DNA of 64,000 nucleotides from Arenibacter algicola (GTDB lineage: Bacteria; Bacteroidota; Bacteroidia; Flavobacteriales; Flavobacteriaceae): assembly GCF_018860365.1 (NCBI RefSeq), contig NZ_JAHKPO010000003.1, positions 124,001 to 188,000 on the forward strand. The letters run 5' to 3'. Of the stretch, positions 10,043-26,593 are shown one piece after another. The position numbers and the translations under genes are program-made. The notes under the pieces are model-generated. The model ran no database searches, was not told where the DNA came from, and was given only the letters and a program-made list of their open reading frames with translations. How positions within the stretch are numbered: position 1 is the stretch's first letter; each line of letters begins with the position of its first letter.

Positions 10043-10711
10043 TTAGTTTCTTAGCTTTATTATAGACCCTAAAGTTTCGCGAACGGTATTTTCAAGTCCA
10101 ACGAAATCCTCATTGGTCAATATTTCTTTACTAATAAGTTGGGATCCCAGTCCTACACAGGTTACGCCGGCATTGAACCATGCCTTTAAGTTGGAAACTT
10201 CAGTAGTGACCCCTCCGGTGGGCATTATGCTTGTCCAGGGTTGTGGTCCTTTAATGGCCTTTACGAATGAAGGACCATAAGTAGATCCGGGAAACAATTT
10301 TACGATTTCGCAACCCAATTCCTCAGCATTGTTAATTTCGGTAAGGGAACCGCATCCAGGAGACCAAAGGACTTTTCTTCTATTACAGGCAATTGCAATA
10401 TCTTCCCTGAGGGATGGGGTTACTATAAAATTGGCCCCCATTTGCATATATAATGAAGCTGCGGCGGCATCGGTAATGGAACCTACCCCGAGAATCATGC
10501 CTGGAAGTTCTTTTATGGCAAATTTGTTCAGTGCTGAGAAAACTTCGAAAGCGAAGTCGCCCCTTGCTGTAAATTCCATTAATCTGGCACCACCATCGTA
10601 GCAGGCTTTTAAAACCTTCTTGCCAAGTGCTATGTCCGAATGGTAGAACAAAGGTACCATTCCGGTTTCCTTCATAATAGTTGCTACTTCTATTCTTGTG
10701 TATTGTGCCAT
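10043..10711 (-). CDS. eda: KDPG/KHG aldolase
   Basis: This 222-residue class I aldolase cleaves 2-keto-3-deoxy-6-phosphogluconate to pyruvate and glyceraldehyde-3-phosphate, the last step of uronate catabolism. The Schiff-base lysine is K138 in VKLFPG. The partner glutamate is E46 in RLMEFT, and the phosphate loop is MPTGGV (about residues 163-168). It lies downstream of the SDR gene but after a strong terminator (10838-10879), so it may have its own promoter. It is translationally coupled or nearly so to the Nramp-like gene. Confidence 0.93.
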   Translation of the reverse strand: MAQYTRIEVATIMKETGMVPLFYHSDIALGKKVLKACYDGGARLMEFTARGDFAFEVFSALNKFAIKELPGMILGVGSITDAAAASLYMQMGANFIVTPSLREDIAIACNRRKVLWSPGCGSLTEINNAEELGCEIVKLFPGSTYGPSFVKAIKGPQPWTSIMPTGGVTTEVSNLKAWFNAGVTCVGLGSQLISKEILTNEDFVGLENTVRETLGSIIKLRN

Positions 10712-10837: not shown

Positions 10838-10879
10838 AAATCCGGGAAGAGCCTTTCGGCCTATAAATTCCCGGATTTT
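10838..10879 (-). terminator. Strong terminator after the MFS-SDR unit
   Basis: The 11-bp perfect stem AAATCCGGGAA/TTCCCGGATTT (10838-10848 and 10869-10879) encloses a smaller GCC-TTTC-GGC hairpin. It separates the SDR gene from the aldolase gene. Confidence 0.85.
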
Positions 10880-10911
10880 AATTACTTTTTTACTTATTGT
10901 TTTCTATTTCC

Positions 10912-11676
10912 TTAAATCCCTAAACCTTGTCCACCACCTATTTGGATAGTTTCGGCAGTAAGGAAAGCGGCATCCTTACCAGCTAAAAACGAAATTACAG
11001 AGGCTACTTCCTCAGGTTGTCCTAATCTTCCTAACAAGATATTGTTTTTCCAGGAAGCGAATACTTCTGGTTTGGTAGATTTAATTTCGGTATGGAAAGG
11101 GGTGTCAATGGTACCCGGAGATACCGCATTTACTCTAATTCCATATTCGGCAAGGTCTTTTGCCAATGCCCTGGTTATGGCATGGACACCCGCTTTGGAT
11201 GTTCCATAAATTCCTGCTCCAGGCCCTCCGGCATTCCAGCCTGCAATGGATGTGTAGTTAATGATGGTAGGAAGATCTCCTTTTTTTAGATAAGGTATAG
11301 CAGCTCTTGAAGCGAAAAATACTGAATCCAAGTTTAATGCCATCACAAATCTGTAAAATTCAGTGGTCATTTCTTCAAACCTGGATCTTCCGCCCAGTCC
11401 ACCTGCATTGTTTACTAGAACATCAATTTTTCCATATTTCTTGCCAATTTTATTAATGTTTGCTGTTACTTCGTCTTCCTTGGTAACATCAAATCCGTAA
11501 TATTCAGCAGTGATACCTTCGGCAGTAAGCTCTTTAATTCTTTTAGCTCCTCCTTCATCATCTATACCGTTCAATACTACTGTGTATCCGTCTTTGCCCA
11601 ATCTTTTTGCTACTTCGAAACCAATGCCTCCGGTAGCTCCTGTTATTACTGCTACTTTTCCTTTTGAATTACTCAT
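10912..11676 (-). CDS. SDR-family oxidoreductase, probable DEH reductase
   Basis: This 254-residue classical short-chain dehydrogenase has the Rossmann loop TGATGGIG (residues 12-19), NNAG (89-92), catalytic S143 and the Y157-x-x-x-K161 pair. In alginate catabolism an SDR reduces 4-deoxy-L-erythro-5-hexoseulose uronate (DEH) to KDG. The position directly after the MFS uronate transporter (30 bp gap) supports that role. A second SDR lies at 19218, so which of the two is the main DEH reductase cannot be decided here; FabG-like activity is the alternative. Confidence 0.85.
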   Translation of the reverse strand: MSNSKGKVAVITGATGGIGFEVAKRLGKDGYTVVLNGIDDEGGAKRIKELTAEGITAEYYGFDVTKEDEVTANINKIGKKYGKIDVLVNNAGGLGGRSRFEEMTTEFYRFVMALNLDSVFFASRAAIPYLKKGDLPTIINYTSIAGWNAGGPGAGIYGTSKAGVHAITRALAKDLAEYGIRVNAVSPGTIDTPFHTEIKSTKPEVFASWKNNILLGRLGQPEEVASVISFLAGKDAAFLTAETIQIGGGQGLGI

Positions 11677-11706
11677 ATTTCAATTTTTATATTATTAAAT
11701 TTTAAA

Positions 11707-12990
11707 TTATTCTACTGATTTTATATTCTTTGCGAAATAATAGATAGATCCTACGCCAAGAGGAACGAAAATGGCTATGGCCACAAAAATGGGTGTATAG
11801 GAAACCTTTGCAATTACAGGTACTAAAAAGTTCATGATAATTACAGAAAACACCCCTACCATGCCACCTAGACCGGCCAAAGACCCTACAGATTTACCAC
11901 TAAAAAAGTCGCTAGGTAAGGTTTGGATATTTCCAATGGCAAACTGAAATCCGAATAACACTATAAATACGATCGCAACGAATTTTTCTGGGGTATCTGC
12001 AAACAAAATAGTCGCTATAAGACCCAAGGCCATTATGACGCCACCTATGAAAATAGTGGTTTTCCTACCTTTGTTTATTGAGTTCGTTTTTGAAATAATG
12101 ACTCCAGAAACATAGCCGCCTGCAATACTCCCAATGGCTGCACCTACGTAAGGAACCCAGGCAAACATTCCCACTTCTTTTACATTAAAGCCATACACGT
12201 CAAATAAATATATGGGCATCCAGCCCACAAAGAGCCACCAGATAGGTTCCAAGAAGAATCTACTTGCTACAATGGCCCAAGATTCTTTATAAGAAAGTAT
12301 TTCTTTTAGGCTAAGTCCTTTTTGGTCTTCAGTGGCATTTTGATCGGCTACACTTTGTCCTTCTGAAATAAATTTTTGTTCTTCTTCTGTTATCCAAGGA
12401 TGCTTTTTTGGTCCCGCTTTATTGATTAACAGCCAAGGAATAATCCATAAAAGACCTATGGCCCCTACTATGATAAACGTAACTTCCCAACCATAGGCCA
12501 CAAAAAGGACTGCTATTAGGGGTGGTGCTATAACCGACCCAATGGAGGCACCGGCATTGAACAACCCCTGCGCTATGGCACGTTCTTTTATTGGAAACCA
12601 TTCCGCATTGCTTTTTACGGCACCTGGCCAGTTTCCTGCTTCAGATAATCCTAATGTTGTTCTGAAAAATGCAAGTGATAAAAACCCTCTTACTGTAGAG
12701 TGCAATAAGGTGGATAAACTCCAAATACCAATGCTGATTACATATCCAATCCTGGTACCTACTTTATCGAATAGTTTGCCCGAGAATAATTGTCCCAAGG
12801 CATAAGCTACCATGAAAATATTTAGGATATAGCTATAGTGATCTTTGGTTAGGCCCAAAGAATGGGATATGGAGCCTTCAACATTCTCATTGCCCCACAT
12901 TATGGACAAAGCACTTCTGTCTATATAATTAATAACAGTTGCTAAAAAGATAAGACCGATAATGAACCAACGTAATCCTTTAATTTTCAT
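11707..12990 (-). CDS. MFS transporter, hexuronate (ExuT-like) family
   Basis: This 427-residue protein has 12 predicted helices and the anion:cation symporter features NYIDRSALSIM in TM1 and SEAGNWPG in the TM4 region, typical of ExuT/GudP-like hexuronate and glucarate transporters. It should import alginate-derived monouronate or DEH across the inner membrane. It is followed at 30 bp by an SDR gene and preceded by the GntR-type regulator. Its 224-bp upstream gap holds the leader element shared with susC (13129-13199) but none of the TGGTTAACCA operators. Confidence 0.88.
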   Translation of the reverse strand: MKIKGLRWFIIGLIFLATVINYIDRSALSIMWGNENVEGSISHSLGLTKDHYSYILNIFMVAYALGQLFSGKLFDKVGTRIGYVISIGIWSLSTLLHSTVRGFLSLAFFRTTLGLSEAGNWPGAVKSNAEWFPIKERAIAQGLFNAGASIGSVIAPPLIAVLFVAYGWEVTFIIVGAIGLLWIIPWLLINKAGPKKHPWITEEEQKFISEGQSVADQNATEDQKGLSLKEILSYKESWAIVASRFFLEPIWWLFVGWMPIYLFDVYGFNVKEVGMFAWVPYVGAAIGSIAGGYVSGVIISKTNSINKGRKTTIFIGGVIMALGLIATILFADTPEKFVAIVFIVLFGFQFAIGNIQTLPSDFFSGKSVGSLAGLGGMVGVFSVIIMNFLVPVIAKVSYTPIFVAIAIFVPLGVGSIYYFAKNIKSVE

Positions 12991-13128
12991 AGTATTTTGC
13001 TTTGGTTTGTATTTCTGTTGCTATGTCATTTTAGGCAATAGAGGGTAAGCGGATGAATTATCCGTGCTTTTTTAATACTTGAATTATAGCTGTAAATTTT
13101 AGGAGTATTTAAATATTACTCAATTCCA

Positions 13129-13199
13129 TAGTATTATTTCAAGTATTATTTCCCTTCAGATTATTTTTTTATAAAGCGATAAAAGTGTGCGTTTTTATC
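13129..13199 (-). promoter_or_regulatory. Shared leader element, MFS copy
   Basis: Read on the minus strand this is a hairpin (GATAAAA/TTTTATC, 13193-13199 with 13178-13184) whose loop contains CGCACAC. It is followed by TCTGAAGGGAAATAATAC (13143-13160) and AAATAATACTA (13129-13139). The same arrangement occurs before susC at 18913-18995. It lies 15 bp after the regulator's stop codon and 139 bp before the MFS start. The function is unknown; an RNA element or a second operator are the options. Confidence 0.6.
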
Positions 13200-13214
13200 A
13201 CTTAGTGATTTTTA

Positions 13215-13922
13215 TTAATCTTTAATATTGTAACAATATTGATATAGCATTTTAAAATGTACTTTCATTTTTTCCTTGGCCAATTGGGGGTCTTGGTTCT
13301 TTATAGCTTCATAAATATCCCTATGCTCTTGAATTCCAATAAAAGCGATATTCTTGTCGCATACATGATATTTGGTAAAGTTGGTAATGATCTCTGGTGT
13401 AATAGTCAGCATAAATGTATTTATCGTACTGTTACCGCTTGCCTTGGCAATGGCCAAATGGAACAATAAATCTTCCTGTACGGCATCTTCCCCATTCATT
13501 ACTTTTGCCGAATAGGCCTCCAAAGCCTCCTCTATTTCTGTCAATTCTTCTTTGGATCTTCTCAAAGCTGCCAATCTAACAGTTTTTAGCTCCAACAGTA
13601 TTCTAGTCTCCACCAAGGATTTGAAATCTGGCTTTTCTAACCTTAAAATATCCGTTATCATGCCATTCAATGCCACGGAACCAATATCGGCAACAAACGT
13701 ACCGCTCTGCGGCTTTGATTTTAACAGACCATAGAACTCCAAGGTCTGAATAGCCTCCCTTACGTTGCTTCTGCTTACTTCAAAATTTTCGGAAAGCTTT
13801 CTTTCCGAAGGTAATTTGTCCCCTGGCTCCAGGTTCTTGTAATTTATATAATCCCTGATCTTGGATATAATCTCTTTTTGAATGGCGTCGTTTTCGTTTT
13901 TCGGGAGAATTTCTATTTTCAT
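13215..13922 (-). CDS. GntR/FadR-family transcriptional regulator of the alginate locus
   Basis: The protein has 235 residues: a winged helix-turn-helix of about residues 10-78 (GDKLPSERKLSENFEVSRSN, then VREAIQTLEFYGLL) and a C-terminal FCD ligand domain with the spaced histidines of its metal site (LLFHLAIA, QEHRDIY, KVHFKML). The frame stays open to 13988, but that extension would run through the operator and -7 box at 13945-13974, so the ATG at 13922 is chosen. The operator just upstream implies autoregulation. A GntR repressor of alginate genes (AusR) is known in Zobellia galactanivorans, and this is a likely counterpart. Confidence 0.88.
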   Translation of the reverse strand: MKIEILPKNENDAIQKEIISKIRDYINYKNLEPGDKLPSERKLSENFEVSRSNVREAIQTLEFYGLLKSKPQSGTFVADIGSVALNGMITDILRLEKPDFKSLVETRILLELKTVRLAALRRSKEELTEIEEALEAYSAKVMNGEDAVQEDLLFHLAIAKASGNSTINTFMLTITPEIITNFTKYHVCDKNIAFIGIQEHRDIYEAIKNQDPQLAKEKMKVHFKMLYQYCYNIKD

Positions 13923-13944: not shown

Positions 13945-13970
13945 TTGGTTAACCAGTTTGGTGTGTCAAA
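13945..13970. promoter_or_regulatory. Operator 1 (regulator gene)
   Basis: One perfect palindrome TGGTTAACCA (13946-13955) is followed 13 bp on by a degenerate unit TGGTGTGTCA (13959-13968). It is the weakest of the four copies and lies 23 bp before the regulator start, abutting its -7 box. A degenerate half would suit weak autoregulation. Confidence 0.8.
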
Positions 13971-13997
13971 TTTAGGTATAAAAGGCAATCGAGAAAA
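13967..13997 (-). promoter_or_regulatory. Promoter of the regulator gene
   Basis: On the minus strand the -7 box is TAAATTTG (13974-13967), with a 19-bp spacer and a poor -33 box TTTT (13997-13994). The box overlaps the end of operator 1, so bound repressor would cover the start site. Confidence 0.6.
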
Positions 13998-14046
13998 ATA
14001 TTACTTAATTATAATTCCTGCCTTGTTACATTAACTTTGCGATAAT

Positions 14047-14084
14047 AAAAATTTACTGGCCTGACAACAAGCCAGTAAATTTTA
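14047..14084 (-). terminator. Terminator of the susC-susD operon
   Basis: The 13-bp perfect stem AAAATTTACTGGC/GCCAGTAAATTTT (14048-14060 and 14071-14083) has a 10-nt loop. It sits about 150 nt after the susD stop, leaving a 3' stretch (14085-14232) in which I see no gene. Confidence 0.85.
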
Positions 14085-14232
14085 AAACAATAACTAACTA
14101 AAACTACCAATCCTTTATGGGTGGGGTCCCACTTGTTTATATACCTTTACTTTTAAGGCTCCACTTCCGACTTTAAAACCACAAGCTGACAAATACTTTG
14201 TTGTCCCTAGTCTGAAGATAATTAGCTGCTTT

Positions 14233-15567
14233 TTAATAACCATCATTTTGGGTAATAACTCCATCGCTAGCAAGAATTTCTGAGTTTGGTATAGGAAACA
14301 CATAGTAATCACTGCTAATCGTTGCTCCCATTTCCGCATCTACTCTACCTGTCCTTACCAAATCGAACCATCTGTGGCCTTCTAGGGCCAACTCCACTCT
14401 TCTTTCGTCAGCAATTGCCTGTCTAACGTCAGCTTGTGAGCTTACTGTTCCAGTTAAACTATTTAAACCCGCTCTTGTTCTTATAGGATCCAATAATGGA
14501 AGTACAGTTGATGCAGGAGCGCTATTTTCATTCAGTGCTTCTGCGTACATTAGAATAACATCGGATAACCTCAATTCTATATAGTCCTGTTCCAAAGCTC
14601 CAGTATATTTCTTACTGCCATTCATATTATCCGTATCAATAGTAAGCGCCTTTCTTAAATCCGTACCTCCACCACCAGCGCTACTGTCGTCAAAAGCGGC
14701 AATTAAGCGTGGGTCTAAAGGCGTAAGGGCTTTTGTATCTGCCCCGGTAAACCATCCTACAAATGTGGTGGCTGAGCCATAGGCGTTTGGAATTGAAGTT
14801 GATAATTGGGTTGCAAATATGATTTCCGAATTACCGTCGACTACAACGTTGGCAAAGTCGCTTTCCAGACTTATCCCTGCGGCAGCAGCACCGCTTATAA
14901 CAGTTCCAAGCGTTGTTGCAGCTTCCGGAAAATTACCTCTGTACATATATACCTTTCCAAGAAAACCCTGAGCTGCGATTTTGGATGCGCGCCCACTTGC
15001 CAATCCAGAATTGTCCAAACCAGCTATTGCAGCCTGAAAGTCTGGGATGATCACGTTATTGTACACGTCGGCAGCCGGTTGTCTTGTTAAAATGGACAAA
15101 TCGGAAGGGCTGGGTGTAGGGGATAAATTCACGGTGACATCACCAAAAACCATCACCAATTTAAAGTAGGACAGAGCTCTTAAGAATTTAGCCTCAGCTA
15201 TCTCCTTAGGCTTGGTTGAATTTTCAATGACATTATTGGCACTTAAGATTGCCTTGTACATATTGCTATAGAATGGTCTAAAAAATTGTTCCACCAAATC
15301 TAAACCTCCTAAATCTGCATTGTAGGTGTCAAATGCCGTATATGGGCTTTCTAACATCAACATATTGTCGGCCCTAAAGTCGCCCATCACACCCATTGGT
15401 GTTGAACCACCGGTCTGATAGTAATACGCCGCATTCAAAACGGGTCCAAATTCCTCCAAACCACTGGATTCAAGTAATAAAGGTGGTGTTTGATCCAAAT
15501 CGTTATCACATGATGTTATCAACAACAAGGAAACTATTACTAAATATATAGATTTCATTTTTTTCAT
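14233..15567 (-). CDS. susD: SusD-family glycan-binding lipoprotein
   Basis: This 444-residue lipoprotein has a lipobox ending in LLITSC shortly after the N-terminus. It then shows the RagB/SusD pattern: TPR-like helices with AEAKFLRALSYFKLVMVFGD, the ADERRVELALEGHRWFDLVR motif near the C-terminus and a terminal region FPIPNSEI...NDGY. It caps the SusC channel and binds alginate oligosaccharides at the cell surface. It starts 10 bp after susC ends. The ATG at 15567 is preferred over the in-frame codon at 15591, which lies inside the susC coding sequence. Confidence 0.95.
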   Translation of the reverse strand: MKKMKSIYLVIVSLLLITSCDNDLDQTPPLLLESSGLEEFGPVLNAAYYYQTGGSTPMGVMGDFRADNMLMLESPYTAFDTYNADLGGLDLVEQFFRPFYSNMYKAILSANNVIENSTKPKEIAEAKFLRALSYFKLVMVFGDVTVNLSPTPSPSDLSILTRQPAADVYNNVIIPDFQAAIAGLDNSGLASGRASKIAAQGFLGKVYMYRGNFPEAATTLGTVISGAAAAGISLESDFANVVVDGNSEIIFATQLSTSIPNAYGSATTFVGWFTGADTKALTPLDPRLIAAFDDSSAGGGGTDLRKALTIDTDNMNGSKKYTGALEQDYIELRLSDVILMYAEALNENSAPASTVLPLLDPIRTRAGLNSLTGTVSSQADVRQAIADERRVELALEGHRWFDLVRTGRVDAEMGATISSDYYVFPIPNSEILASDGVITQNDGY

Positions 15568-15577
15568 GATTTCTTTA

Positions 15578-18500
15578 TTAAAAATTAACATTTACACCCA
15601 AAGTAAAACTTCTCACAATAGGGCTTGCACCTTCTTGGTATCCGTAGGTGGTTGGACCCGCATAACCATCATTTTCGATCTCTACACCTTCAGGGTTAAA
15701 TGAGGTATAATTATCTGCCATTATATACAACAAATTGGTGGCTGCAACATATACCCTCATAGAACCTATGCCAATTTTATCCGTTAAGTCAGGATCAAGA
15801 GTATACCCTAAGGTTATGTTTCTTAGAGCGGTAAAGGAAGCATCTTGAATCCCAGAACCATGTGCATTTCTAGTCTCTTGATAAAACTTGCCACTGGCAT
15901 CAGCAATACCGTCATTATTGGCATCAAAACTGGACTTTAATCTACCTCCAAATTGTGATTTCCAGTAAATGGGGTCTATATTGTAAAGTTCTGCTCCTTG
16001 AGATCCTTGGAATTGGAACGAAAAATCAAAATTCTTTATGCTCATGGAACTAGAAAGTCCCCAATAGAAATCCGGTGTTGCGGATCCTAACTTTACATAA
16101 TCTCCTTCATAGGTAATTTCTCCGTCACCGTTTTGGTCTACAACATACCATTCTCCGGCACCAAATCCAACGCCTCTGGATGGATCTGACATATGTATCG
16201 TTTCAACCTCACCAGTTACTTCATAACCCCACATTTCACCAATTTCACCTCCTACATAGTTTCTAAATTCAGGACCTCTACCACTCGGTCCACCGTAAAT
16301 TTGCCTGGGCAGTTCGGTCAGTTCACCTAGATTGGTAATTTCTGATTTAGCAGTTGATAAATTGGCGTTGATATTCCAAGAGAAGTTTTGATTGGTAATT
16401 ATTTTTGTATTAAGTTCAAATTCCAAACCGGAACTGGTCACATCACCGCGATTAAGTTTTATAGCTGGTGTTCCAAGAACTTCAGAAACACTTTGATTGA
16501 TCAACATATCTTGTACATCGGACGTATAGTAATCTACACTCAATCTAATTCGGTTATTTATAAACCCTGTATCAACCCCATAGTTTGTCTCTTTATTGGT
16601 TTGCCATGTTAGATCTGGGTTTGCTATATCCTCAGGAATTAGAAACCCTGTCCCGAAAGCGGTCGGTGAGGTACCTAGAATACTTAAGGAGTTGTATGAC
16701 CCTAAGAAGGAAGCGGTTCCTAAAGACCCGGTACTAAACCTAAGTTTAAATAGGCTAAACGCATCAGCATTTCCGAAAAAAGATTCATTATGAATATTCC
16801 AGCCTAAGGATAGTGCTGGGAATACTGCGTATTTTTCATTGGCTCCAAATCGTGAATCACCATCTCTCCTAATGGATGCCGATAATAGATAACGATCATC
16901 AAACGCGTAGGCAATTCTTCCAAAAAAACCATTTCTTGATTGAGTCTCATCTATCTCGTTGGTAATCACATCTGCAGGATCAAAAAAGTCATAATTTAAA
17001 GGTAGGCCAAATGGGACGTTCGATCCATTGTTGACAATTCCCTTATAATAGGTATTTACAAACTCCATTCCCGCCACCGCAGAAATATCGTGCTTATCAG
17101 CAAATACTTTTGCATAATTTAAAGTAGTTGTACTTAACACGGTAGATTTTTTTATATTGGATATATCCAACTCTGTTTGATTGGAACGTTGTTGGCCATC
17201 CGATAATATTCCGTGATATTCGTAGGTCTGGGTATCTTCAAGATCTGCTCCAAAAACGGTTTTAATATTTAAACCCTCTATGATTTCATATTGTAGATAA
17301 GAACTTACGTTCCCAAAATATGTCTTTTTCCATCTTTGTGAATTATCAAACTTCGCCGCTACACCTGCATCTCCTGTTCCTCCAATACCATTTTGATTTC
17401 TACCGTATTGCCAATCGTGAACTACATCACCTGGTTGCAGATCATAGATACTTGTAGGATCCAGACCTATACCTCTATAATCTTGGTCAAATGATCTGCC
17501 TATGTTATTTCCTGTAAATCCAGAATTAAATAATGCCTGTCTTTTTTGATCCAATTGTTGAACGAAATCTATTGAGGCTTGCGTATGGTATATAGGACTT
17601 ATGCTATATGATCTCAAAAGATCTCTCATTTCCCAAGGAACAATATCTTGCTTGCCATAATATCCGTTCATACTCAATCCGGCCTTTAATTTGGCACCCA
17701 AGTTGGCATCTAGGTTCATACGTCCGTTATATCTTTCATAACCTTGCCCTTTTACAATACCTTCAGTGTTCAGATAGCCAAGGGAGGCAAAAGCTTTTAT
17801 ATTTTCAGACCCTCCGCTCACGCTGAAATCATGGCTAGTTGAACTACCATTTTTGAAAAGCCAATCTTCTATACTTACTACATCAGGCGCATTAGCGTAT
17901 GCATCCAGTCTGTAAGCCAATAAACCTGGGTCGGTTTCGGAAAGATCATAAGCACTAGTTTGTAACTCATTGGCCCATTCCCCTGCAGTCTTAAGCATTT
18001 CAATGTCCTTTACATACTTGCTTGAAGTGCTTGTATATGAATTGTAATTAAAATTGACTTTTCCTGCTTTACCTTTTTTGGTGGTTACCAAAATAACACC
18101 ATTTGCACCCAAAGAACCATAAATAGCAGCTGAAGCAGCATCTTTTAATACCTCTAAGCTTTCTATATCGTTAGGGTTAACGGTTGCTAGATTACCTGAA
18201 ATTGGATAGCCATCCACAACAATTAACGGCCCTGAGTCACCTGAAACAGATGAAGCTGCCCTTATTTGGATCTTTGGATCGGCACCAGGTTCTCCGCTTT
18301 GATTTTGAATCCTTACCCCAGACAACTTACCTGCCAGAGCATCATCCACACGGGCCACTTGAACAGCAGCAACCTCATCCCCGCCTACTTTGGCTACCGC
18401 TCCGGTAAGATGTGATTTTTTTATAGTACCATATCCAACTACCACAACCTCATCAAGTTGACTTGCATCTTCTTGCAGGGTGATATTCAATTGTTCTTGA

Positions 18501-18760
18501 TTTGTAATTGGTATAGATTGGCTTACAAAGCCCAAAGACGAGAACTGTAGTACATCCCCATTTTTTACCTCAATTTGGTAATTTCCATCAAAGTCGGTTG
18601 CCGTACCGGTAGTAGTATTGGCTATAATTACATTCACTCCAGGCACTGGGATCTGGGCAGCATCCGTTACCGTTCCGGACAGTATTCGTCCATCTTGGGC
18701 GAACAGTGCAATATTGAATAACAATACTACTGTTAGAATTAAATTGGTTTTGAATTTCAT
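15578..18760 (-). CDS. susC: SusC-family TonB-linked outer-membrane importer
   Basis: The protein has 1060 residues. A signal peptide is followed by a carboxypeptidase-D-like regulatory domain (LSGTVTDAAQIPVPGVNVII), the TonB box region EVVVVGYGTIKK, the plug (VRIQNQSGEPGADPKIQIRA, LIVVDGYPI, ESLEVLKDAASAAIYGSLGA) and the 22-strand barrel to the C-terminus. It imports alginate oligosaccharides with SusD. The ATG at 18760 begins the signal peptide; the longer frame from 18832 does not. The 5' region is long: the promoter at 19103-19133 gives a leader of about 335 nt containing the shared hairpin element. Confidence 0.95.
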   Translation of the reverse strand: MKFKTNLILTVVLLFNIALFAQDGRILSGTVTDAAQIPVPGVNVIIANTTTGTATDFDGNYQIEVKNGDVLQFSSLGFVSQSIPITNQEQLNITLQEDASQLDEVVVVGYGTIKKSHLTGAVAKVGGDEVAAVQVARVDDALAGKLSGVRIQNQSGEPGADPKIQIRAASSVSGDSGPLIVVDGYPISGNLATVNPNDIESLEVLKDAASAAIYGSLGANGVILVTTKKGKAGKVNFNYNSYTSTSSKYVKDIEMLKTAGEWANELQTSAYDLSETDPGLLAYRLDAYANAPDVVSIEDWLFKNGSSTSHDFSVSGGSENIKAFASLGYLNTEGIVKGQGYERYNGRMNLDANLGAKLKAGLSMNGYYGKQDIVPWEMRDLLRSYSISPIYHTQASIDFVQQLDQKRQALFNSGFTGNNIGRSFDQDYRGIGLDPTSIYDLQPGDVVHDWQYGRNQNGIGGTGDAGVAAKFDNSQRWKKTYFGNVSSYLQYEIIEGLNIKTVFGADLEDTQTYEYHGILSDGQQRSNQTELDISNIKKSTVLSTTTLNYAKVFADKHDISAVAGMEFVNTYYKGIVNNGSNVPFGLPLNYDFFDPADVITNEIDETQSRNGFFGRIAYAFDDRYLLSASIRRDGDSRFGANEKYAVFPALSLGWNIHNESFFGNADAFSLFKLRFSTGSLGTASFLGSYNSLSILGTSPTAFGTGFLIPEDIANPDLTWQTNKETNYGVDTGFINNRIRLSVDYYTSDVQDMLINQSVSEVLGTPAIKLNRGDVTSSGLEFELNTKIITNQNFSWNINANLSTAKSEITNLGELTELPRQIYGGPSGRGPEFRNYVGGEIGEMWGYEVTGEVETIHMSDPSRGVGFGAGEWYVVDQNGDGEITYEGDYVKLGSATPDFYWGLSSSMSIKNFDFSFQFQGSQGAELYNIDPIYWKSQFGGRLKSSFDANNDGIADASGKFYQETRNAHGSGIQDASFTALRNITLGYTLDPDLTDKIGIGSMRVYVAATNLLYIMADNYTSFNPEGVEIENDGYAGPTTYGYQEGASPIVRSFTLGVNVNF

Positions 18761-18912
18761 TAGTGATTTAATTAAGTTAGTAATAAATTCTGGCTCATTT
18801 GCCGTGGGTACCTTTAATGTGATATTGTTCACATTTAATCCTTCAACTTACTAAAACACATTGCTGCACTAATATTCAATGAAATTACTTAGTTTTGCAG
18901 TAAATATGTAAT

Positions 18913-18995
18913 TAGTATTATTTGCATGTTTTGGTATTACTTCCCTTCAGAATGAAGTAATCTTTTTACAAAAGGATGGGTGTGCGCCCGTCCTT
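18913..18995 (-). promoter_or_regulatory. Shared leader element, susC copy
   Basis: The minus-strand hairpin AAGGACGGG/CCCATCCTT (18995-18987 with 18980-18972) has a CGCACA loop. It is followed by TCTGAAGGGAAGTAATAC (18934-18951) and AAATAATACTA (18913-18923). The 18-nt box differs at one base from the copy before the MFS gene. The hairpin stem has a quite different sequence from that copy but still pairs. It lies 153 bp before the susC start, inside the predicted 5' untranslated region. On the plus strand the same hairpin is followed by a long T run and could also stop transcription in that direction. Confidence 0.65.
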
Positions 18996-19067
18996 TTTTT
19001 TTGTTAAATTCTAGGGTTTATTATTAAGTGTGTTTCTTTTAACATGGTCTTGTTGTTTTAAGTTTTT

Positions 19068-19106
19068 CTGGTAAACCAAATTGGTTAACCAGTTTGGTTT
19101 ACCAAA
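19068..19106. promoter_or_regulatory. Operator 2 (susC), three units
   Basis: Three palindromic units TGGTAAACCA (19069), TGGTTAACCA (19082) and TGGTTTACCA (19095) are spaced exactly 13 bp start to start. It is the only copy in the window with three units. It abuts the susC -7 box at 19103-19110. Confidence 0.88.
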
Positions 19107-19133
19107 TATATGTTATTTAATTGTTAATTAAAA
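19103..19133 (-). promoter_or_regulatory. Promoter of susC-susD
   Basis: On the minus strand the -7 box is TATATTTG (19110-19103), with a 19-bp spacer and a weak -33 box TTTT (19133-19130). The -7 box ends inside operator 2. Confidence 0.65.
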
Positions 19134-19217
19134 ATTTAATTACAATTTTTGTGTGTTAAATTTTTCTATCTGCTAATTGGAGCTTGTAGAAATTATCAAA
19201 TTCGTATTTGATCTATT

Positions 19218-19970
19218 CTATGAAAAGGCAAGTCCACCGTTAATATCGATGTTTGCCCCTGTAATAAAGGAAGTTTCAGAAGATGCCAGGCAGGCCACTG
19301 CATTGGCAATTTCCTCTGCCGAGCCTTCCCTGCGAAGTGGGGTCATTCCTGCTACTTTCTCCCGTACTTCATCTGTGGTGAAGGTGTCGTGAAAGGTGGT
19401 GGCAATCATACCGGGACAAAGGGCATTTACCCGAATATTTTTTGGGCCCACCTCTTTGGCCAGACCTCTAGTAAAGGTCATTATAGCTCCTTTTGATGTT
19501 GCATAGGCTATAGATCCACCGCCCCCACCATCCCTACCGGCCTGGGAGGCTATATTTACTATGGAGGCCCCAGATTTCATATGGGGCAAAACTGCCTTGG
19601 TGACCAAGAAAGTTGAATTAAGATTTAATTTAATCACCTTGTCAAAAAAAGCTTCGTCCATCTCAGCTACTGTCTTTCGGGCAACCAGGCCACCGGCATT
19701 GTTTACCAGTACGTCTATAGTATCACCATAATTGCCAATGGTTTCCTTTATGAGTCTATCTACTTCGGATTTCTTGGTCACATCCGCCTTGACAATGATG
19801 GCTTCCCCACCGGCCGATTTAATTGCGTTCAGAGTTTCTTTGGCATTTGCTTCATTGCTATAGTAATTTACTACAACCTTAGCACCTTCCTTGGCCAATT
19901 TAATGGAAATGGCCTTTCCAATATCTCTAGTGCCACCTGTAACAATGGCTATTTTTCCTTTTAAATTCAT
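19218..19970 (-). CDS. SDR-family oxidoreductase (KdgF-linked)
   Basis: This 250-residue short-chain dehydrogenase has catalytic S142, Y156 and K160 and NNAG at 90-93. The cofactor loop reads TGGTRDIG (residues 11-18): the middle glycine of TGxxxGxG is an aspartate. The gene is third in the PL7-kdgF-SDR unit, 48 bp after kdgF, so it is likely an uronate or DEH reductase acting with KdgF. A FabG-like activity cannot be excluded. With the SDR at 10912 the locus has two candidates for the DEH step, as in some alginate degraders with NADH- and NADPH-linked pairs. Confidence 0.83.
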   Translation of the reverse strand: MNLKGKIAIVTGGTRDIGKAISIKLAKEGAKVVVNYYSNEANAKETLNAIKSAGGEAIIVKADVTKKSEVDRLIKETIGNYGDTIDVLVNNAGGLVARKTVAEMDEAFFDKVIKLNLNSTFLVTKAVLPHMKSGASIVNIASQAGRDGGGGGSIAYATSKGAIMTFTRGLAKEVGPKNIRVNALCPGMIATTFHDTFTTDEVREKVAGMTPLRREGSAEEIANAVACLASSETSFITGANIDINGGLAFS

Positions 19971-20018
19971 ATGTGTTGTTTATGACATAAAGTCTTCCCG
20001 AAAAGGGCGTTTTTTTTA

Positions 20019-20396
20019 TTATGACTTCTTATCTCCAAAATACGATACCTCTCCACCGCTCAAGAAATCTTCTCTTACAGGACTAAATGTGTCAATTAGT
20101 ATCCCTTCTTCCAAACAAACTGCACTATGCAATAGATTAGGTTCAATATAAACTCCATCTCCTGCTTCTACAATTTTCTTTTCTCCATTAATTTCAAATT
20201 CAAATTTACCTGAAGCACAATAGGTAGCTTGTGTATGAAAATGTTTATGTGGGGAACCTAATGCTCCTTTTTCAAACTTCACTTTTACCATCATGATTTG
20301 GTTATCGTACCCCAAAAACTGTCTTGATACTCCTCCTCCAAGTTCTTCCCATTCCATTTCTTTTGTGGTGATGTACTTTTTACTAAATCGTTTCAT
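20019..20396 (-). CDS. kdgF: KdgF-type cupin, unsaturated-uronate linearising protein
   Basis: This 125-residue single-domain cupin has metal ligands visible as H50, H52, Q56 (SPHKHFHTQ) and H90 (IEPNLLHSAV). This matches KdgF, which converts 4,5-unsaturated monouronates from alginate or pectin lyases into the linear 5-keto form (DEH). It lies 71 bp after the PL7 gene and 48 bp before an SDR, an order that matches the reaction sequence. It is a cytoplasmic protein with no signal peptide. Confidence 0.9.
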   Translation of the reverse strand: MKRFSKKYITTKEMEWEELGGGVSRQFLGYDNQIMMVKVKFEKGALGSPHKHFHTQATYCASGKFEFEINGEKKIVEAGDGVYIEPNLLHSAVCLEEGILIDTFSPVREDFLSGGEVSYFGDKKS

Positions 20397-20467
20397 TTTT
20401 TTATGATTTTAATATGTCTTTACTCTTTTTTAATAGCGATCAACTGCTTTATGTAAATCAATTCCAT

Positions 20468-22522
20468 TTACTTTGGTGGTGTACCCTGACCTACTGTTGC
20501 TTCCCTAAACCATACTTCCGTATAACAGCCATTTTCATATTGTTTGGCGATATCACCTCCATAGGTTTCCGCACCTGCAAACCAAACCATATTGGTTTCG
20601 GGACTTTTTCCATTGGTCTGGTTGTACGCCCCTTGTTTAAAATAATTCAACTCTCCACTATAAGCAGTGGTACGTTCAGTTCCATCTTGACCTATGGGAA
20701 CAAATAATTTCTTCATCTGTGCAGGAAAGTCCGAATTTTTTACATATTCAGATGAGATTAGATTTTTGGTAAATGTTTTAGTTTCGTGATCTTCACTTTT
20801 GAAGGTTAGATACATGATTCCCTTATAAACATTTACTTCATAACTGAATTCTTCACCCAATTCAATTCCATTTTTAGGCTCAGCGGGATAGTCGTTTTTA
20901 CCTTTTCCAATGACAGACATATCGTGCCCCCAAACAGCATTGGAATATTCCCACCTTCCGGAATTGTCATCACCTTCTGGATTGATTTCATAATTCCAAA
21001 AGACCGAACCTTTAGTGTGACCAGGAAACTTCTTGTAAAATATTTTTAGTGGTTCATTTTCATGTCCTTCACCACTGTGAATTTGCCCGACAACAGTTGA
21101 ATAAGAGGCAGCAACTCTGGCATCTCCAGAAATGGAGACCTGCATTACCTTGCAGGTACCTGTTAGTTTACCACCATCTTCAGGGAGCCATTCTCTTTTT
21201 TCGTGTAGTTCGGTTCTTGTATTACTGGAGTTTTTTGAAGTGACACCAGAATTTGGAGTTTTGTAGACTACCCAACGTCTTGTACCGTCAATCACGGTGT
21301 AGAAGAAATCTTTGTGTTCGAACTCCGTGATATCTTCCACCTCCGTGCCGTCACCCAACAATATTTTAAATTTATCCATAAAAGGAATTACCTCATTTGG
21401 GTAAACCGTTTTCGAACTTAAGCCATCATTCGCTTCGAAATAACCTGCATTCGAAATGGCATCATCGCTGATTGTGATATCTGCTGATTTAAACCAAACC
21501 TCGGCGTAATTGCCATCTGCATATTGTTTTTGTATATCACCACCATGGGTTTCGGCACCAGAACACCAGACTTTATTGATTTTAGGGTCTTTCCCGTTGG
21601 TTTGGTTATACGTGCCCAATTTGAAAAATAGGCCCTCGCCGGTATACGCTTCTTTGCGCTCAAGGCCATCCTGCCCTATGGGTACAAATAATTTCTTGGT
21701 TTGCTCTGGCATGTCCGAAAGATTTGCATATTCAGAGGAAATAAGATTTTTAGTGAATTTTTTGGTCTCATGGCCTTCACTCGTGAATGTTAGATACATC
21801 ATACCTTCCTTAATGACTACTTCATAAGTGAATTCTTCACCTAAAGCAATTCCGTCAACCGGTTCAGGGGGATAGGTGTTTTCATCAGTACCGACAACAG
21901 AAAAGTCATAGCCCCATATAGGATATGAATAATCCCATCTTTTGGAATTATCATCACCTGCAGTATTTATTTCGTAATGCCAAAAGACAGAGCCTTTTTC
22001 ATGCCCAGGAAATTTTTTATAAAAGATTTTAAGTGGTTCGTTTTCATGCCCATCTGCACTGTGAATCTGACCAACCACTACTGAATACGTTGAAGCAACG
22101 CGGGCATCGCCGGTAGTTGACACGTTCATTACCTTTAGGGTAGCTTTCATAGTAGCTTCTGTCATTGGTGACCACTTCTTTAATTGGGCCAATTCGGTTC
22201 TTGTATTGTTCGAGGTACCATGGGTATTTCCTGCATTTGGAGTTTTGAATACGACCCAATCCCCATGATCATCACTCGCAGTATAAAAGAAATTCTTGTT
22301 CTCATAGTCAAGTGCTTGGCCTACATTAGAGCCATCACCTAGGATCAAATTCCAATGTTGAAAAAATGGTATGATGTCGTTTGCACTGCGACCTAAGGCT
22401 ACATTGTCAGTTTTGTCTGTAGATTCTTGTTTTTTGTTTTCTTTACAGCTAATAAATAGCAAAATGGTACTTATCATGAATAAATAATGTACCGAAACCG
22501 AATTGAATACTTTAAAGTTCAT
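20468..22522 (-). CDS. Alginate lyase lipoprotein with two tandem PL7 domains
   Basis: The protein has 684 residues with a lipobox at C26 (LLFISC). Two full PL7 jelly-roll domains follow, of about residues 45-345 and 370-675. Each carries the family's three signatures: RTEL (R108 and R436), QIH (152-154 and 480-482) and the YNQ strand (305-307 and 633-635). All catalytic positions appear intact in both domains. PL7 enzymes beta-eliminate alginate endolytically. The gene has its own operator and promoter and leads the PL7-kdgF-SDR unit. The domains are roughly 60% identical by eye, implying a fairly recent internal duplication. Confidence 0.92.
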   Translation of the reverse strand: MNFKVFNSVSVHYLFMISTILLFISCKENKKQESTDKTDNVALGRSANDIIPFFQHWNLILGDGSNVGQALDYENKNFFYTASDDHGDWVVFKTPNAGNTHGTSNNTRTELAQLKKWSPMTEATMKATLKVMNVSTTGDARVASTYSVVVGQIHSADGHENEPLKIFYKKFPGHEKGSVFWHYEINTAGDDNSKRWDYSYPIWGYDFSVVGTDENTYPPEPVDGIALGEEFTYEVVIKEGMMYLTFTSEGHETKKFTKNLISSEYANLSDMPEQTKKLFVPIGQDGLERKEAYTGEGLFFKLGTYNQTNGKDPKINKVWCSGAETHGGDIQKQYADGNYAEVWFKSADITISDDAISNAGYFEANDGLSSKTVYPNEVIPFMDKFKILLGDGTEVEDITEFEHKDFFYTVIDGTRRWVVYKTPNSGVTSKNSSNTRTELHEKREWLPEDGGKLTGTCKVMQVSISGDARVAASYSTVVGQIHSGEGHENEPLKIFYKKFPGHTKGSVFWNYEINPEGDDNSGRWEYSNAVWGHDMSVIGKGKNDYPAEPKNGIELGEEFSYEVNVYKGIMYLTFKSEDHETKTFTKNLISSEYVKNSDFPAQMKKLFVPIGQDGTERTTAYSGELNYFKQGAYNQTNGKSPETNMVWFAGAETYGGDIAKQYENGCYTEVWFREATVGQGTPPK

Positions 22523-22687
22523 ATTATATGGGTTATGTTTTCTATAAAAACCGTAAAAAGTTATTTTTTTAACGGCAAGGATAATTTCTTCAACAATCTA
22601 AAAGAAACCTTCTATCAGATGGTTTTACCTGCACTTCTACGATAACGAAAGCCATTAAAAAACATAGCGAAAGTGATTTTGTAAAAA

Positions 22688-22712
22688 TTGGTTTACCAGA
22701 TTGGTTTACCAA
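22688..22712. promoter_or_regulatory. Operator 3 (PL7 gene)
   Basis: Two identical units TGGTTTACCA (22689-22698 and 22702-22711) are spaced 13 bp apart. They sit about 170 bp before the PL7 start and overlap its -7 box. Confidence 0.87.
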
Positions 22713-22740
22713 AAATACGCAAATTTGTGGAACCACCAAA
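22710..22740 (-). promoter_or_regulatory. Promoter of the PL7-kdgF-SDR unit
   Basis: The -33 box TTTG (22740-22737), a 19-bp spacer and the -7 box TATTTTTG (22717-22710) are a full match to the Bacteroidota consensus. The last bases are shared with operator 3. Confidence 0.75.
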
Positions 22741-23157
22741 TATTTAACATTAAATCCATCTGTTTTATCTTTAATTAATAATATTCTATCTGTGAAATTG
22801 CTAATTCGGCAAATATGAATTTTGCTCTAAGAGAGTATTGTATAGGGGGTATTCAAAAAAGAATTTGGGATTAAGGTTCTTTATTCCAAAAGACCGCTAA
22901 ATAATAGACCTTATAAGATCTAATCAAATTAGAAGCAATGGTATTACATCGCTTGGATAAATTGTGGTTTTTGAATCTTGATTATTGGACCTCTTAGCGG
23001 TATTAAGAGAGCTATTTATTACTGCTATATGAGCTGGTACGAATAATTTTGCAATTATGGCGGCCATTTTAATAGGTTTTAATTTTTGTTTATTTCTTTT
23101 TAATTAGAAACATTGGATGTGATCCTTGCAAAGTGGCTTAATGAAAGGGGGATTGGT
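22741..23157. other. Intergenic region without a supported gene
   Basis: About 420 bp lie between the PL7 promoter and the end of the PL6 gene. I see no recognisable gene, terminator or repeat. A 47-codon frame on the minus strand (22924-23067) has no protein-like features. Confidence 0.6.
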
Positions 23158-25467
23158 TTAGTACAGTAATTTCATTTCTAAATTCTCTTCAACACGGATT
23201 TCCCCTGAATTGCTTATCTCATTGTCCGAATAGGTATTGTTTTTCGCTCCCCAAAGTAAGGCTACCAGTTTTACCGGATTGTTTTTAAAGGTGTTTTTGG
23301 AAATATCGACATTTACAATGCCATGGGAGTTGATCAGAATTCCACTTTTTTCTTGTGCCCCACAATTTGTGAAGGTGCTGTTGGTGACCAACAGATTCCC
23401 ACCAATGGTAGATTCGTCATAACCTCCACGATAGTAGTCGATCACATTGCTTTTTACATTGGAGAACCGGCAATTATTTATAGTTAGGTATTCAGTGTTA
23501 TAATCTCCTAGATCATTAGTTTCTTCTGATAGTTCCAAACCATTTTCGCAGTTTAAAATTGAAGTGTTTTCAAAGGTGATACGTTCTGCAAAGGACTCTT
23601 TATAGACCTTTAAGACATAATTAAAATCATTGATATCACAATCGGCAACCGTTAACCCAAAATGTGTAAACATATTTTCTTTTAAACTGGCAAATGCATG
23701 TTGGGCATTATTTCCTTTTAATGTTACATTTTTCAGATTTAAAAAGCCTTTAGGTTGAAGTTGGAATAATGGTGAATTTTCTGCTCCTGAATAATTTAGG
23801 ACAACTTTTGACTTATCCAAAGATTGAATGGTCAGCTTTTTATTGATTATCAAGGATTTCGGGATATCATAATTTCCCGCTTCCAGTGAAATTATATCTC
23901 CATTATCCGCTTCATTTATTTTTGTTTGTAGATTTTCTGTTTTTGCAACAACTAGCATTTTAGGTTGAGGAGCTTCTGCTGTAGCTGAATACCAACTTGG
24001 ACCATATTTGGACCGGTCCAAAATTTTTGGGTCTTTAAAATCCGTATTCGTGAAGGCTCCAATAGAATTGTTTTTGGCCCTGGAATTTCCAACTAAATCT
24101 TTCGAAATTTTTTCAAATTCAAACCCTTGGTAAGGTTCAATAGCTATTTTGGAAGAAGGGATTAGAATATTTTCACCAATTTCTTTAACATCAATATTTA
24201 CAGCCTCCAATCCGTCATAAGCTTTAAAATCCACGCCTTGATTATTGATGGCGTTGCTTCTAAAGGTCACTCCATCGGCCTTATCGTGTTCCACAACCGG
24301 TGAAGCATCACCTTTTTCATTATAAATTACGTTGTTGGCAATTATTGTCCTTATGGGTCTGGCTGAACGAATTTCAGAAGAAGGCAAAACATCTTCCTGA
24401 CTTAAATTTTGACCAACTCCGAATTGCCAGGGGGAATCGCAATTTATGTAGGTATTATAAGTGACCACTACATCTGTAACCTGATTGTATCTGTTTAGGG
24501 GTGATTTTGGAATTCCGTTCATCACGGCCAGGGCACTTCTAAAATTCTTCCCTTTTATATTGTAGAAGTAATTGTTGGTTACCCAATGCCCAGTATTGAT
24601 TATTCTGATACCTCCTATGTTTTCGTTTTTACCATCGCCAATAAAGTAATTGCCATCAATAGTGCAATAATTACCGTGTCTTGTTACCAAAGAACCTTCG
24701 CTTTTGTAGAATACATTATTTCTGAACTCATTGAAGTTGGTTTTACTGGAAATAATTTCAACTTCGCCATTGCACTCTTCAAATAAATTATTTGCAACCT
24801 TTGTATAACTTGGGGACATTGATGAATAGCTATTGCCAATTTGAATAGTCTCGCCACTTGCCCCCCCTTTTGGAGGTCTAGGCCCAAAATGGTTGTTAAT
24901 GATCTGATGGTAATTCTTTATGCTCTCATTGCCTTCCAGATCCACCCTAATAGTTGGGCCACGATTTGTTTTCCCGGCAATATAATTGTTGCTCAGGGTA
25001 TTGTGTCTTCCCCAAAATTGAACCCAAAGATCCGTATCATCACGATGCATTTTATTAAAATCCTCAATAACGCAATTGGTAACGGTGCAGTGATTGCCTA
25101 TCATATTTTCGGCCACCCTAAATTCCAATACTGCTTCGCTCGGGGAATGACCATTTCTAAAGTGCAGACCATCGACCACTAAGTACTTCCCTCCAAATTT
25201 TAAATCGGATACCCCTTCAATAAAAACTTTTCCAGGTGTTTCAGCTTTAATTGTAATTGGCTTGTCTTCTGTGCCTTCACCTATAAATTTGATTTGGACA
25301 TCTTTCCATATACCATTGGCCATCACAATGTTATCCCCAGCCTGTGCATTTTTTATGGCTTCTTCCAATTCTTCAGGAGTGCCTACGGTTTTGGTATTAA
25401 GATTGGTCTTTTCCCCACAAGCGCCGATAATAAACAAAAAGCAAAATAATGTTACTAGTCTTGTCAT
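23158..25467 (-). CDS. PL6-family alginate lyase lipoprotein, two beta-helix domains
   Basis: The protein has 769 residues with a lipobox at C17 (FIIGAC). The N-terminal right-handed beta-helix is chondroitinase-B-like. It carries the Brønsted pair K242 (SSK) and R263 (VTRHG), spaced 21 residues as in PL6 lyases, and acidic Ca2+ ligands E235 and E237 (EVEI). A second parallel beta-helix occupies about residues 510-769, as in two-domain PL6_1 enzymes. It should degrade alginate at the cell surface. It is the first gene of the locus in transcription order and is driven by the promoter at 25526-25556. Confidence 0.92.
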   Translation of the reverse strand: MTRLVTLFCFLFIIGACGEKTNLNTKTVGTPEELEEAIKNAQAGDNIVMANGIWKDVQIKFIGEGTEDKPITIKAETPGKVFIEGVSDLKFGGKYLVVDGLHFRNGHSPSEAVLEFRVAENMIGNHCTVTNCVIEDFNKMHRDDTDLWVQFWGRHNTLSNNYIAGKTNRGPTIRVDLEGNESIKNYHQIINNHFGPRPPKGGASGETIQIGNSYSSMSPSYTKVANNLFEECNGEVEIISSKTNFNEFRNNVFYKSEGSLVTRHGNYCTIDGNYFIGDGKNENIGGIRIINTGHWVTNNYFYNIKGKNFRSALAVMNGIPKSPLNRYNQVTDVVVTYNTYINCDSPWQFGVGQNLSQEDVLPSSEIRSARPIRTIIANNVIYNEKGDASPVVEHDKADGVTFRSNAINNQGVDFKAYDGLEAVNIDVKEIGENILIPSSKIAIEPYQGFEFEKISKDLVGNSRAKNNSIGAFTNTDFKDPKILDRSKYGPSWYSATAEAPQPKMLVVAKTENLQTKINEADNGDIISLEAGNYDIPKSLIINKKLTIQSLDKSKVVLNYSGAENSPLFQLQPKGFLNLKNVTLKGNNAQHAFASLKENMFTHFGLTVADCDINDFNYVLKVYKESFAERITFENTSILNCENGLELSEETNDLGDYNTEYLTINNCRFSNVKSNVIDYYRGGYDESTIGGNLLVTNSTFTNCGAQEKSGILINSHGIVNVDISKNTFKNNPVKLVALLWGAKNNTYSDNEISNSGEIRVEENLEMKLLY

Positions 25468-25503
25468 AATTAATGAATTTTATGTAGCACTTATAATTAT
25501 TAA

Positions 25504-25528
25504 TTGGTTAACCAGATTGGTTAACCAA
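25504..25528. promoter_or_regulatory. Operator 4 (PL6 gene and divergent branch)
   Basis: Two perfect units TGGTTAACCA (25505-25514 and 25518-25527) are spaced 13 bp apart: the cleanest copy. It lies in the 135-bp gap between divergent genes and touches promoter elements of both. Confidence 0.9.
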
Positions 25529-25543
25529 AAATACGTATATTTG
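25517..25543 (+). promoter_or_regulatory. Promoter of the divergent isomerase-like gene
   Basis: TTG at 25517-25519, a 16-bp spacer and TATATTTG at 25536-25543. The -33 box lies inside operator 4 and the -7 box inside the opposing PL6 promoter, so the two promoters interlock. Confidence 0.6.
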
Positions 25544-25556
25544 TTGGACTAACAAA
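25526..25556 (-). promoter_or_regulatory. Promoter of the PL6 gene
   Basis: The -33 box TTTG (25556-25553), a 19-bp spacer and the -7 box TATTTTTG (25533-25526) have the same geometry as the PL7 promoter. The -7 box ends in operator 4. Confidence 0.75.
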
Positions 25557-26568: not shown

Positions 26569-26593
26569 ATAGGGATAACCAGAGCATAACAAT

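Follow-up and report, generated by a model that had tools for sequence, protein, structure and literature searches.

How is the breakdown of a seaweed sugar kept under joint control in Arenibacter algicola, a member of the Flavobacteriaceae? The question is raised by a window of 64,000 nt (NCBI RefSeq assembly GCF_018860365.1, contig NZ_JAHKPO010000003.1, positions 124,001 to 188,000 of the forward strand; coordinates below are window positions), in which Pfam domains identify an alginate cluster of lyase, cupin, short-chain dehydrogenase/reductase (SDR), SusCD, MFS and 2-keto-3-deoxy-6-phosphogluconate (KDPG) aldolase genes around a GntR/FadR-type regulator gene. The locus appears to hold a regulon of the type of Zobellia AusR with two layers of control, namely palindromic operator arrays at four promoters and a predicted antisense RNA gene inside the 5' leader of susC. 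Taken jointly the two layers are judged probable, which is an overall judgement rather than the product of independent parts; for the parts themselves, confidence is very high that the operators belong to the FadR-type protein, and the antisense RNA gene in the susC leader is considered highly likely.

The four genes that carry the operators upstream are:

13215..13922, minus strand: ausR-like repressor gene, GntR/FadR-type (FCD), 235 aa from the ATG at 13922 (Pfam GntR 6e-19, FCD 1.4e-24)
15578..18760, minus strand: susC-like gene (Pfam Plug, CarbopepD_reg_2)
20468..22522, minus strand: alginate lyase gene with two PL7-type domains (Pfam Alginate_lyase2, two stretches)
23158..25467, minus strand: PL6-type lyase gene (Pfam Chondroitinas_B 3.5e-200)

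Their promoters contain the following elements:

13946..13955, minus strand: ausR operator slot 2, occupied by a single perfect unit TGGTTAACCA (predicted +8 to +17)
13959..13968, minus strand: ausR operator slot 1, degenerate TGACACACCA, with one half-site retained
13967..13974, minus strand: ausR -7 box TAAATTTG
19069..19104, minus strand: susC operator, three units at 13-bp steps
19103..19110, minus strand: susC -7 box TATATTTG
22689..22711, minus strand: PL7 operator, two units at a 13-bp step
22710..22717, minus strand: PL7 -7 box TATTTTTG, with TTTG at 22737-22740, 19 bp off
25505..25527, minus strand: PL6 operator, two units at a 13-bp step
25526..25533, minus strand: PL6 -7 box TATTTTTG, with TTTG at 25553-25556, 19 bp off

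Perfect copies of the palindromic unit TGGTNNACCA are located at 13946-13955 before ausR, at 19069, 19082 and 19095 before susC, at 22689 and 22702 before the PL7 gene and at 25505 and 25518 before the PL6 gene. The preliminary description of this DNA had claimed four palindromic operators, each a pair of units 13 bp apart with a box directly before it. All four operators were recovered, with starts that had been given one base low, and the pairing held for PL7 and PL6, but susC carries three units and ausR a single perfect one accompanied by a degenerate half-unit. The boxes themselves had been read exactly; rather than standing clear of the array, however, each shares its final TG with the first two bases of unit 1 on the minus strand (at ausR, with those of the degenerate unit). 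This box matches the flavobacterial sigma-A -7 form TAnnTTTG at 4/4 promoters, while the -33-type TTTG at 19 bp occurs at 2/4, as TTTG-N19-TATTTTTG before PL7 and PL6 and not before susC or ausR, which bears out the exact distance stated for these two promoters in the preliminary description. Absent from that description are the array of three units before susC, the half-degenerate state of the ausR site, the conserved copy number at each gene and an antisense RNA gene predicted in the susC leader.

Within the window, TGGTWAACCA with at most one mismatch gave 29 matches (palindromic sites counted on both strands) against 12.7 expected, a number reached in 0 of 100 shuffles. The genome-wide scan for 13-bp pairs that had been proposed earlier located exact pairs only at susC, PL7 and PL6 in the whole 5.75-Mb genome, and pairs with up to three mismatches at 14 places per strand versus 7 for the reversed control. 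The combination TAnnTTT-N12-TGGTNNACCA was present at 4 places, exactly the four promoters (control 1), and TAnnTTTGGTNNACCA at 5 places, 3 of them in this locus (control 3). A regulon extending beyond the locus was rejected: one of the two extra single-site matches of TAnnTTTGGTNNACCA falls in an open reading frame (ORF) that is GntR-like by eye, and the other in DNA for which no ORF of 100 aa or more starting with ATG is listed.

The geometry was then measured in 77 loci carrying a relative of the regulator at 68-97% identity (1.50 Mb, 283 perfect units), the closest being those of three Arenibacter records at 97% identity. Unit pairs less than 60 bp apart (n = 103) were spaced by 13 bp in 81 cases, by 26 bp in 21 and by 45 bp in 1, and five control palindromes gave no such pairs. 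The perfect units formed 193 clusters, comprising 115 single, 66 double and 12 triple ones. In 71/78 multi-unit clusters TAnnTTTG begins 6 bases ahead of the first unit and ends on the first TG of the array, and in 43 single-unit clusters it begins 19 bases ahead of the unit, one 13-bp step further. Altogether the box stands at -6 or -19 in 126/193 clusters, and 3 multi-unit and 64 single ones lack it at both places. Upstream of ausR a unit was detected within 160 nt in 56/77 loci, and TAnnTTT was placed at -19 in 42/56 of these promoters (next best offset 6), with slot 1 half-degenerate or lost; the half-site form of the window's slot 1 is common among the relatives. Copy number depends on the gene, as a third slot with at most two mismatches, counted among the 126 clusters with a box (11 of them without an assigned gene), was present in 52/71 susC, 0/13 PL7, 1/6 PL6 and 1/25 ausR promoters.

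Two other features of these promoters were recorded. Although the triple array of the window is a perfect dyad taken as a whole, such symmetry is not claimed, since 40 unique triples compared for mirror versus direct arrangement divided 22 to 15 with 3 ties, and shuffles reached the observed sum 302/5000 times. The PL7 and PL6 promoters (22710-22740 and 25526-25556) share ATTTG..AGT....ACAAAT between the -33 TTTG and the -7 box, an imperfect inverted repeat that is similar in several PL7/PL6 promoters across several genera; many susC promoters carry TTAAC...AATAACA before the box in place of this stretch.

The protein encoded at 13215-13922 has GntR-family regulators, including PdhR and NanR, as its nearest solved relatives. 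The unit fits the operator consensus of the FadR subfamily, a palindrome with TKGT/ACMA boxes and 2-3 nt between GT and AC, here GT-N2-AC; a spacing of 2 nt is listed for UxuR, GntR and other members of the subfamily in a survey whose table counts 0 FadR-subfamily regulators from Bacteroidetes (PMC4494728). Co-occurrence was assessed in 299 genomes of the family, with a threshold of E <=1e-40 for the gene and the exact 13-bp pair as the motif. The motif pair was detected in 69 genomes and the regulator gene in 74, that is, both in 68, the motif only in 1 (G154), the gene only in 6 and neither in 224, while the reversed control pattern gave 0 in every row. Two of the six gene-only genomes were inspected (G019 and G207), and both show imperfect 13-bp arrays at the susC leader.

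The position of the flavobacterial -7 box at -12 to -5, as given in PMC9723704, allows start sites to be predicted at 13962 for ausR, 19098 for susC, 22705 for PL7 and 25521 for PL6. Unit 1 would then occupy -6 to +4, unit 2 +8 to +17 and unit 3 +21 to +30. Dimers of the 13215-13922 protein would thus occupy a stack of TGGTNNACCA units that begins where the -7 box ends and proceeds by 13 bp, and a repressor bound on unit 1 would cover the predicted start site and thereby block initiation. A step of 13 bp corresponds to 13/10.5 turns, or about 86 degrees between neighbouring dimers, so their footprints should lie close together on different faces of the helix. With three units at susC, two at the lyases and one and a half at ausR, copy number may keep uptake tightly controlled and let the repressor regulate its own gene more loosely. 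Repression by a FadR-type protein through blocking of the start site, as suggested in the preliminary description, is the best reading of the GntR/FCD domains, the consensus fit, the co-occurrence and the predicted location of unit 1 at about -6 to +4.

The second layer concerns the stretch between the susC promoter and the susC gene, whose predicted features are:

18761..19098, minus strand: predicted susC 5' leader, about 338 nt, from the box position and the -12 to -5 rule
18890..18897, plus strand: -7 box TAGTTTTG of the predicted antisense RNA gene
18902..19006, plus strand: predicted antisense RNA, about 105 nt, inside the susC leader, with ends deduced from box and terminator
18970..19006, plus strand: intrinsic terminator of the predicted antisense RNA, 12-pair stem and long T tract

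The ATG at 18760 was taken as the likely susC start, although the listed ORF extends to 18832. A conserved element at 18889-18999 emerged from the alignment of susC leaders of 300-372 nt (n = 44 including the window), of which 38 were retained (alignment A1) after identical elements had been merged and three leaders lacking the element dropped (L028, L078 and the second of L088). L088 carries the element elsewhere, not in its dropped second susC leader. From A1 a model of the element, R1, was made in the sense orientation and with the box columns included; its 56 matches gave 53 unique elements once identical ones were merged. The initial interpretation was accordingly a sense-strand one, which was set aside on the strand evidence of box, T-run and stem pairing. 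The 3' end of the element on the sense strand reads CAAAnnTA, the reverse complement of a -7 box, and in the antisense direction TAnnTTT stands at one place in 48 of the 53 unique elements (next best offset 5) and TAnnTTTG in 39 (next best offset 2). The T-run at the end of the hairpin has 5-10 residues (mostly 7-8) on the antisense strand versus 1-6 (mostly 4) on the sense strand. An alignment of 47/53 elements (A2; six close to retained ones omitted) showed the terminator stem paired in 508/517 cells on the antisense strand versus 463/517 on the sense strand; at one stem position the contrast was 47/47 versus 14/47, and one stem pair varies between A-T (in 29) and G-C (in 17).

Folding of the element in the window agreed in direction, with -29.9 kcal/mol (z -4.4) on the plus strand versus -18.6 kcal/mol (z -2.9) on the sense strand. 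A terminator consensus scan of 18700-19200 returned three terminator-like sites, all on the plus strand, two of them nested at the hairpin (18970-18997 and 18978-18993) and the third being the triple operator itself, which is a palindrome. Within its own genome the element is matched once by R1, and the hairpin pattern is unique to the susC leader save for one place with 2 mismatches. No Rfam family reached its gathering score in 18700-19150, where the best hit was L20_leader with 16.9 versus 58.7 bits, and two tRNAs were the only Rfam matches in the whole window.

R1 at E <0.01 placed the element in 56/78 sources (the window and 55/77 loci), always on the susC sense strand; raising the limit to E 0.1 added ten opposite-strand matches overlapping strong ones and one weak match in L028. 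A susC homologue lies directly downstream in the sense direction in all 55 relative loci with the element, its start, extrapolated from tblastn, falling from 41 nt before to 152 nt beyond the element's end. An operator pair is situated within 115 nt upstream of the element in 49/55 loci; the six remaining loci are all Maribacter records, and among the matches listed five of them have a degenerate slot 2 (the sixth being L091). The regulator is present in 59/60 genomes of the family sample that carry the element, including the doubtful G121, whose match (L120) has no operator units within 1.5 kb. The match without a regulator, G257, lies in a stretch (L119) that shows no operator unit and resembles a chance terminator. 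A phylum scan of 395 genomes at E 1e-4 detected the element in 6, all in the window's family, and the unevenness of that sample makes absence outside the family weak evidence.

Once an alginate breakdown product had released the repressor, as is reported for Zobellia AusR, the freed susC promoter would yield the leader of about 338 nt, which would be opposed by the antisense RNA of about 105 nt made from its own promoter within the leader. Pairing of this RNA with the leader would lower susC output in the manner of the DonS-type RNAs of Bacteroides. Taken together, the repressor would act on initiation at each of the four units, and adjustment of SusCD after initiation would fall to the antisense RNA. 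The antisense transcript would not read through the operators, as a strong terminator ends it about 60 bp before them.

Other explanations can be offered for both layers. That the operators are bound by another transcription factor, the FadR-type gene being a mere neighbour, might account for the 6/74 gene-bearing genomes without an exact pair and for the 1/69 pair-bearing genomes without the gene at E 1e-40; it is very unlikely in view of the FadR-subfamily consensus, the unit at the gene's own promoter in most loci, the tight co-occurrence across the family and the single, double or triple operators described for Zobellia AusR. Activation from these sites instead of repression is conceivable, as activation by a FadR-subfamily protein is possible, yet the sites lie over the predicted start and extend downstream of the -7 box, which fits blocking, and AusR is described as a repressor, so that activation is given next to no chance. 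The 13-bp register could also stem merely from recent duplication of one promoter among the genes, and the upstream regions of PL6 and PL7 are indeed similar; those of susC and ausR differ from the lyases' and nevertheless retain the register across several genera, which renders simple duplication quite improbable. Some counts do tell against the assignment of the operators to the FadR-type protein as start-site blockers: 67/193 perfect-unit clusters have no exact box at -6 or -19, although 34 of these 67 (by our own count) lie upstream of ausR, whose box often has a variant form, and some others in coding sequence; 21/77 ausR upstream regions contain no perfect unit within 160 nt; and the Fisher value of 5e-59 for the co-occurrence of motif and gene overstates the evidence, as related genomes are not independent.

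For the leader, the competing explanation dispenses with an antisense RNA: the element would work on the sense strand, serving the susC mRNA as an attenuator or a cis-acting element. The sense strand folds too (-18.6 kcal/mol, z -2.9), the second hairpin is neutral on strand, with 353 versus 346 of 376 cells paired, and susC follows just downstream in all 55 relative loci. This explanation is considered unlikely, because the conserved box (TAnnTTT), the length of the T-run and the wobble pairing in the terminator stem favour the plus strand, terminator-like sites in 18700-19200 are confined to that strand, and two genomes retain the element with no susC directly behind it. Besides the neutral hairpin, several observations count against the antisense RNA gene. 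No clear -33 element was visible upstream of the antisense -7 box on inspection of the aligned elements, and the 48-of-53 box count is partly a matter of construction, R1 itself containing the box columns, which does not apply to the strand signal of the stem. The element is absent from 22/77 loci (some of them short or lacking a susC match) and from 15/74 genomes with the regulator, and the p-value of the element-regulator association is inflated by the relatedness of the genomes. In L116 and L117, finally, it is ausR and not susC that directly follows element and operator. The operator pair and the intact element (L116 5135-5749, L117 4529-5103) are flanked there by ausR and by a kdgF-like gene recognized by eye, and no ORF of 100 aa or more starting with ATG intervenes before ausR; the arrangement may be a remnant or a sign of action in trans. 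An antisense RNA gene is still the preferred explanation.

The AusR regulon of Zobellia galactanivorans reportedly goes back to Dudek et al. 2020 (Nucleic Acids Research, NAR). It is treated in PMC8286568, PMC7874173 and PMC8073546. In PMC8286568, AusR is described as a GntR-family repressor that acts on most alginate genes and gives way to oligosaccharide effectors; according to PMC7874173, the operators it binds come in single, double or triple copies. The locus here resembles it in having a GntR-family regulator gene within an alginate locus and promoters with single, double and triple operator copies, a likeness by description rather than by operator letters or positions. No Zobellia-named record is among the 77 loci. 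The preliminary description was right to call the system partly homologous to Zobellia AusR and understated it: since operators in one to three copies are already described there, the operator finding alone adds a member to a known kind. What exceeds the Zobellia description is a register and copy-number rule measured over 77 loci, with steps of 13 bp locked to the -7 box and a copy number that goes with the gene, together with the antisense RNA gene predicted in the susC leader.

A three-unit operator is also known from Escherichia coli NanR, a GntR-type repressor whose three-repeat operator is occupied by three dimers (PMC8012715), which the susC array resembles. The repeats of NanR are GGTATA in that text, whereas the units here are TGGTNNACCA, and its cooperativity is stated to need a 32-residue N-terminal extension (PMC8012715); in the protein encoded here the GntR domain begins at residue 37 when the 257-aa ORF is counted in full and at about residue 15 when counting starts with the ATG, which leaves only about 14 residues before the domain.

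With regard to the second layer, cis-antisense RNAs of the DonS type at susC genes of Bacteroides are said to have been described by Cao et al. 2016. They form a family of 78-128-nt RNAs opposite susC homologues whose expression they lower (PMC7366714), by a mechanism given as unknown in PMC11697453. The predicted RNA of the window would fall within this length range, its ends being deduced, and lies opposite a susC homologue of a polysaccharide locus, as in 55/55 relative loci though not in L116 and L117. It differs from DonS in belonging to the Flavobacteriaceae and in sitting inside a leader under a local FadR-type repressor; the likeness is one of layout and length, not of compared sequence, and concerns an RNA whose expression is predicted. 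The literature searched contained no antisense RNA at alginate or marine polysaccharide loci, which does not prove its absence from print.

The remaining genes of the cluster are:

10043..10711, minus strand: KDPG aldolase gene (Pfam Aldolase)
10912..11676, minus strand: second SDR gene (domain scan)
11707..12990, minus strand: MFS transporter gene, 3' of ausR (Pfam MFS_1)
14233..15591, minus strand: susD-like gene (Pfam SusD_RagB 5.8e-30)
19218..19970, minus strand: SDR oxidoreductase gene, probable 4-deoxy-L-erythro-5-hexoseulose uronate (DEH) reductase by presumed substrate (Pfam adh_short_C2 6.1e-62)
20019..20396, minus strand: cupin gene, probable kdgF by presumed name (Pfam Cupin_2)

The Chondroitinas_B-type lyase of 23158..25467 bears the CAZy name PL6. 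No other PL7-family match was found in the genome beyond the two domains of the window's PL7 gene, and the only other PL6-family match is under the family cut-off. No 2-keto-3-deoxygluconate (KDG) kinase was recognized among the scanned cluster genes of the 10043-13215 region, and TGGTNNACCA is absent from the surrounding sequence (about 3.8 kb) of the kdgK candidates, six PfkB-family genes elsewhere in the genome. A hairpin with a T-run at 14045-14090 (minus strand), between susD and ausR, is likely a terminator that keeps susCD and ausR apart as units. Genes for a xylose-isomerase-like TIM barrel, an RraA-like protein and a sulfatase occupy 25603-29451 (plus strand), in divergent orientation to the PL6 gene; the PL6 operator at 25505-25527 lies in the intergenic stretch common to both and might affect both sides. 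An Nramp-family metal transporter gene at 8764-10041 (minus strand) is located directly 3' of the KDPG aldolase gene, and a protein start resembling its own was noticed by eye in L120 at 7865, near a kdgF-like gene. Two tRNA genes of equal scores, 73 bp apart, are found at 61318-61389 and 61463-61534.

Because promoter, folds and terminator are retained in L116 and L117, where susC does not stand directly behind, a wider idea can be put forward tentatively, with more doubt than belief: the alginate susC operator and its dedicated antisense RNA gene might form one conserved control module of the Flavobacteriaceae, in which the RNA would be more than a by-product of susC and may act on other transcripts. 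The conserved C-rich loop of the RNA may be a candidate pairing site for such transcripts. For the family at large, the rule that operators stand at 13-bp steps from the -7 box, in a copy number fixed by the gene, makes it possible to predict AusR targets in many Flavobacteriaceae that degrade alginate. If the antisense RNA is indeed produced, alginate use in these bacteria would gain a layer of control by RNA, and the DonS idea would reach beyond gut Bacteroides into the Flavobacteriaceae.

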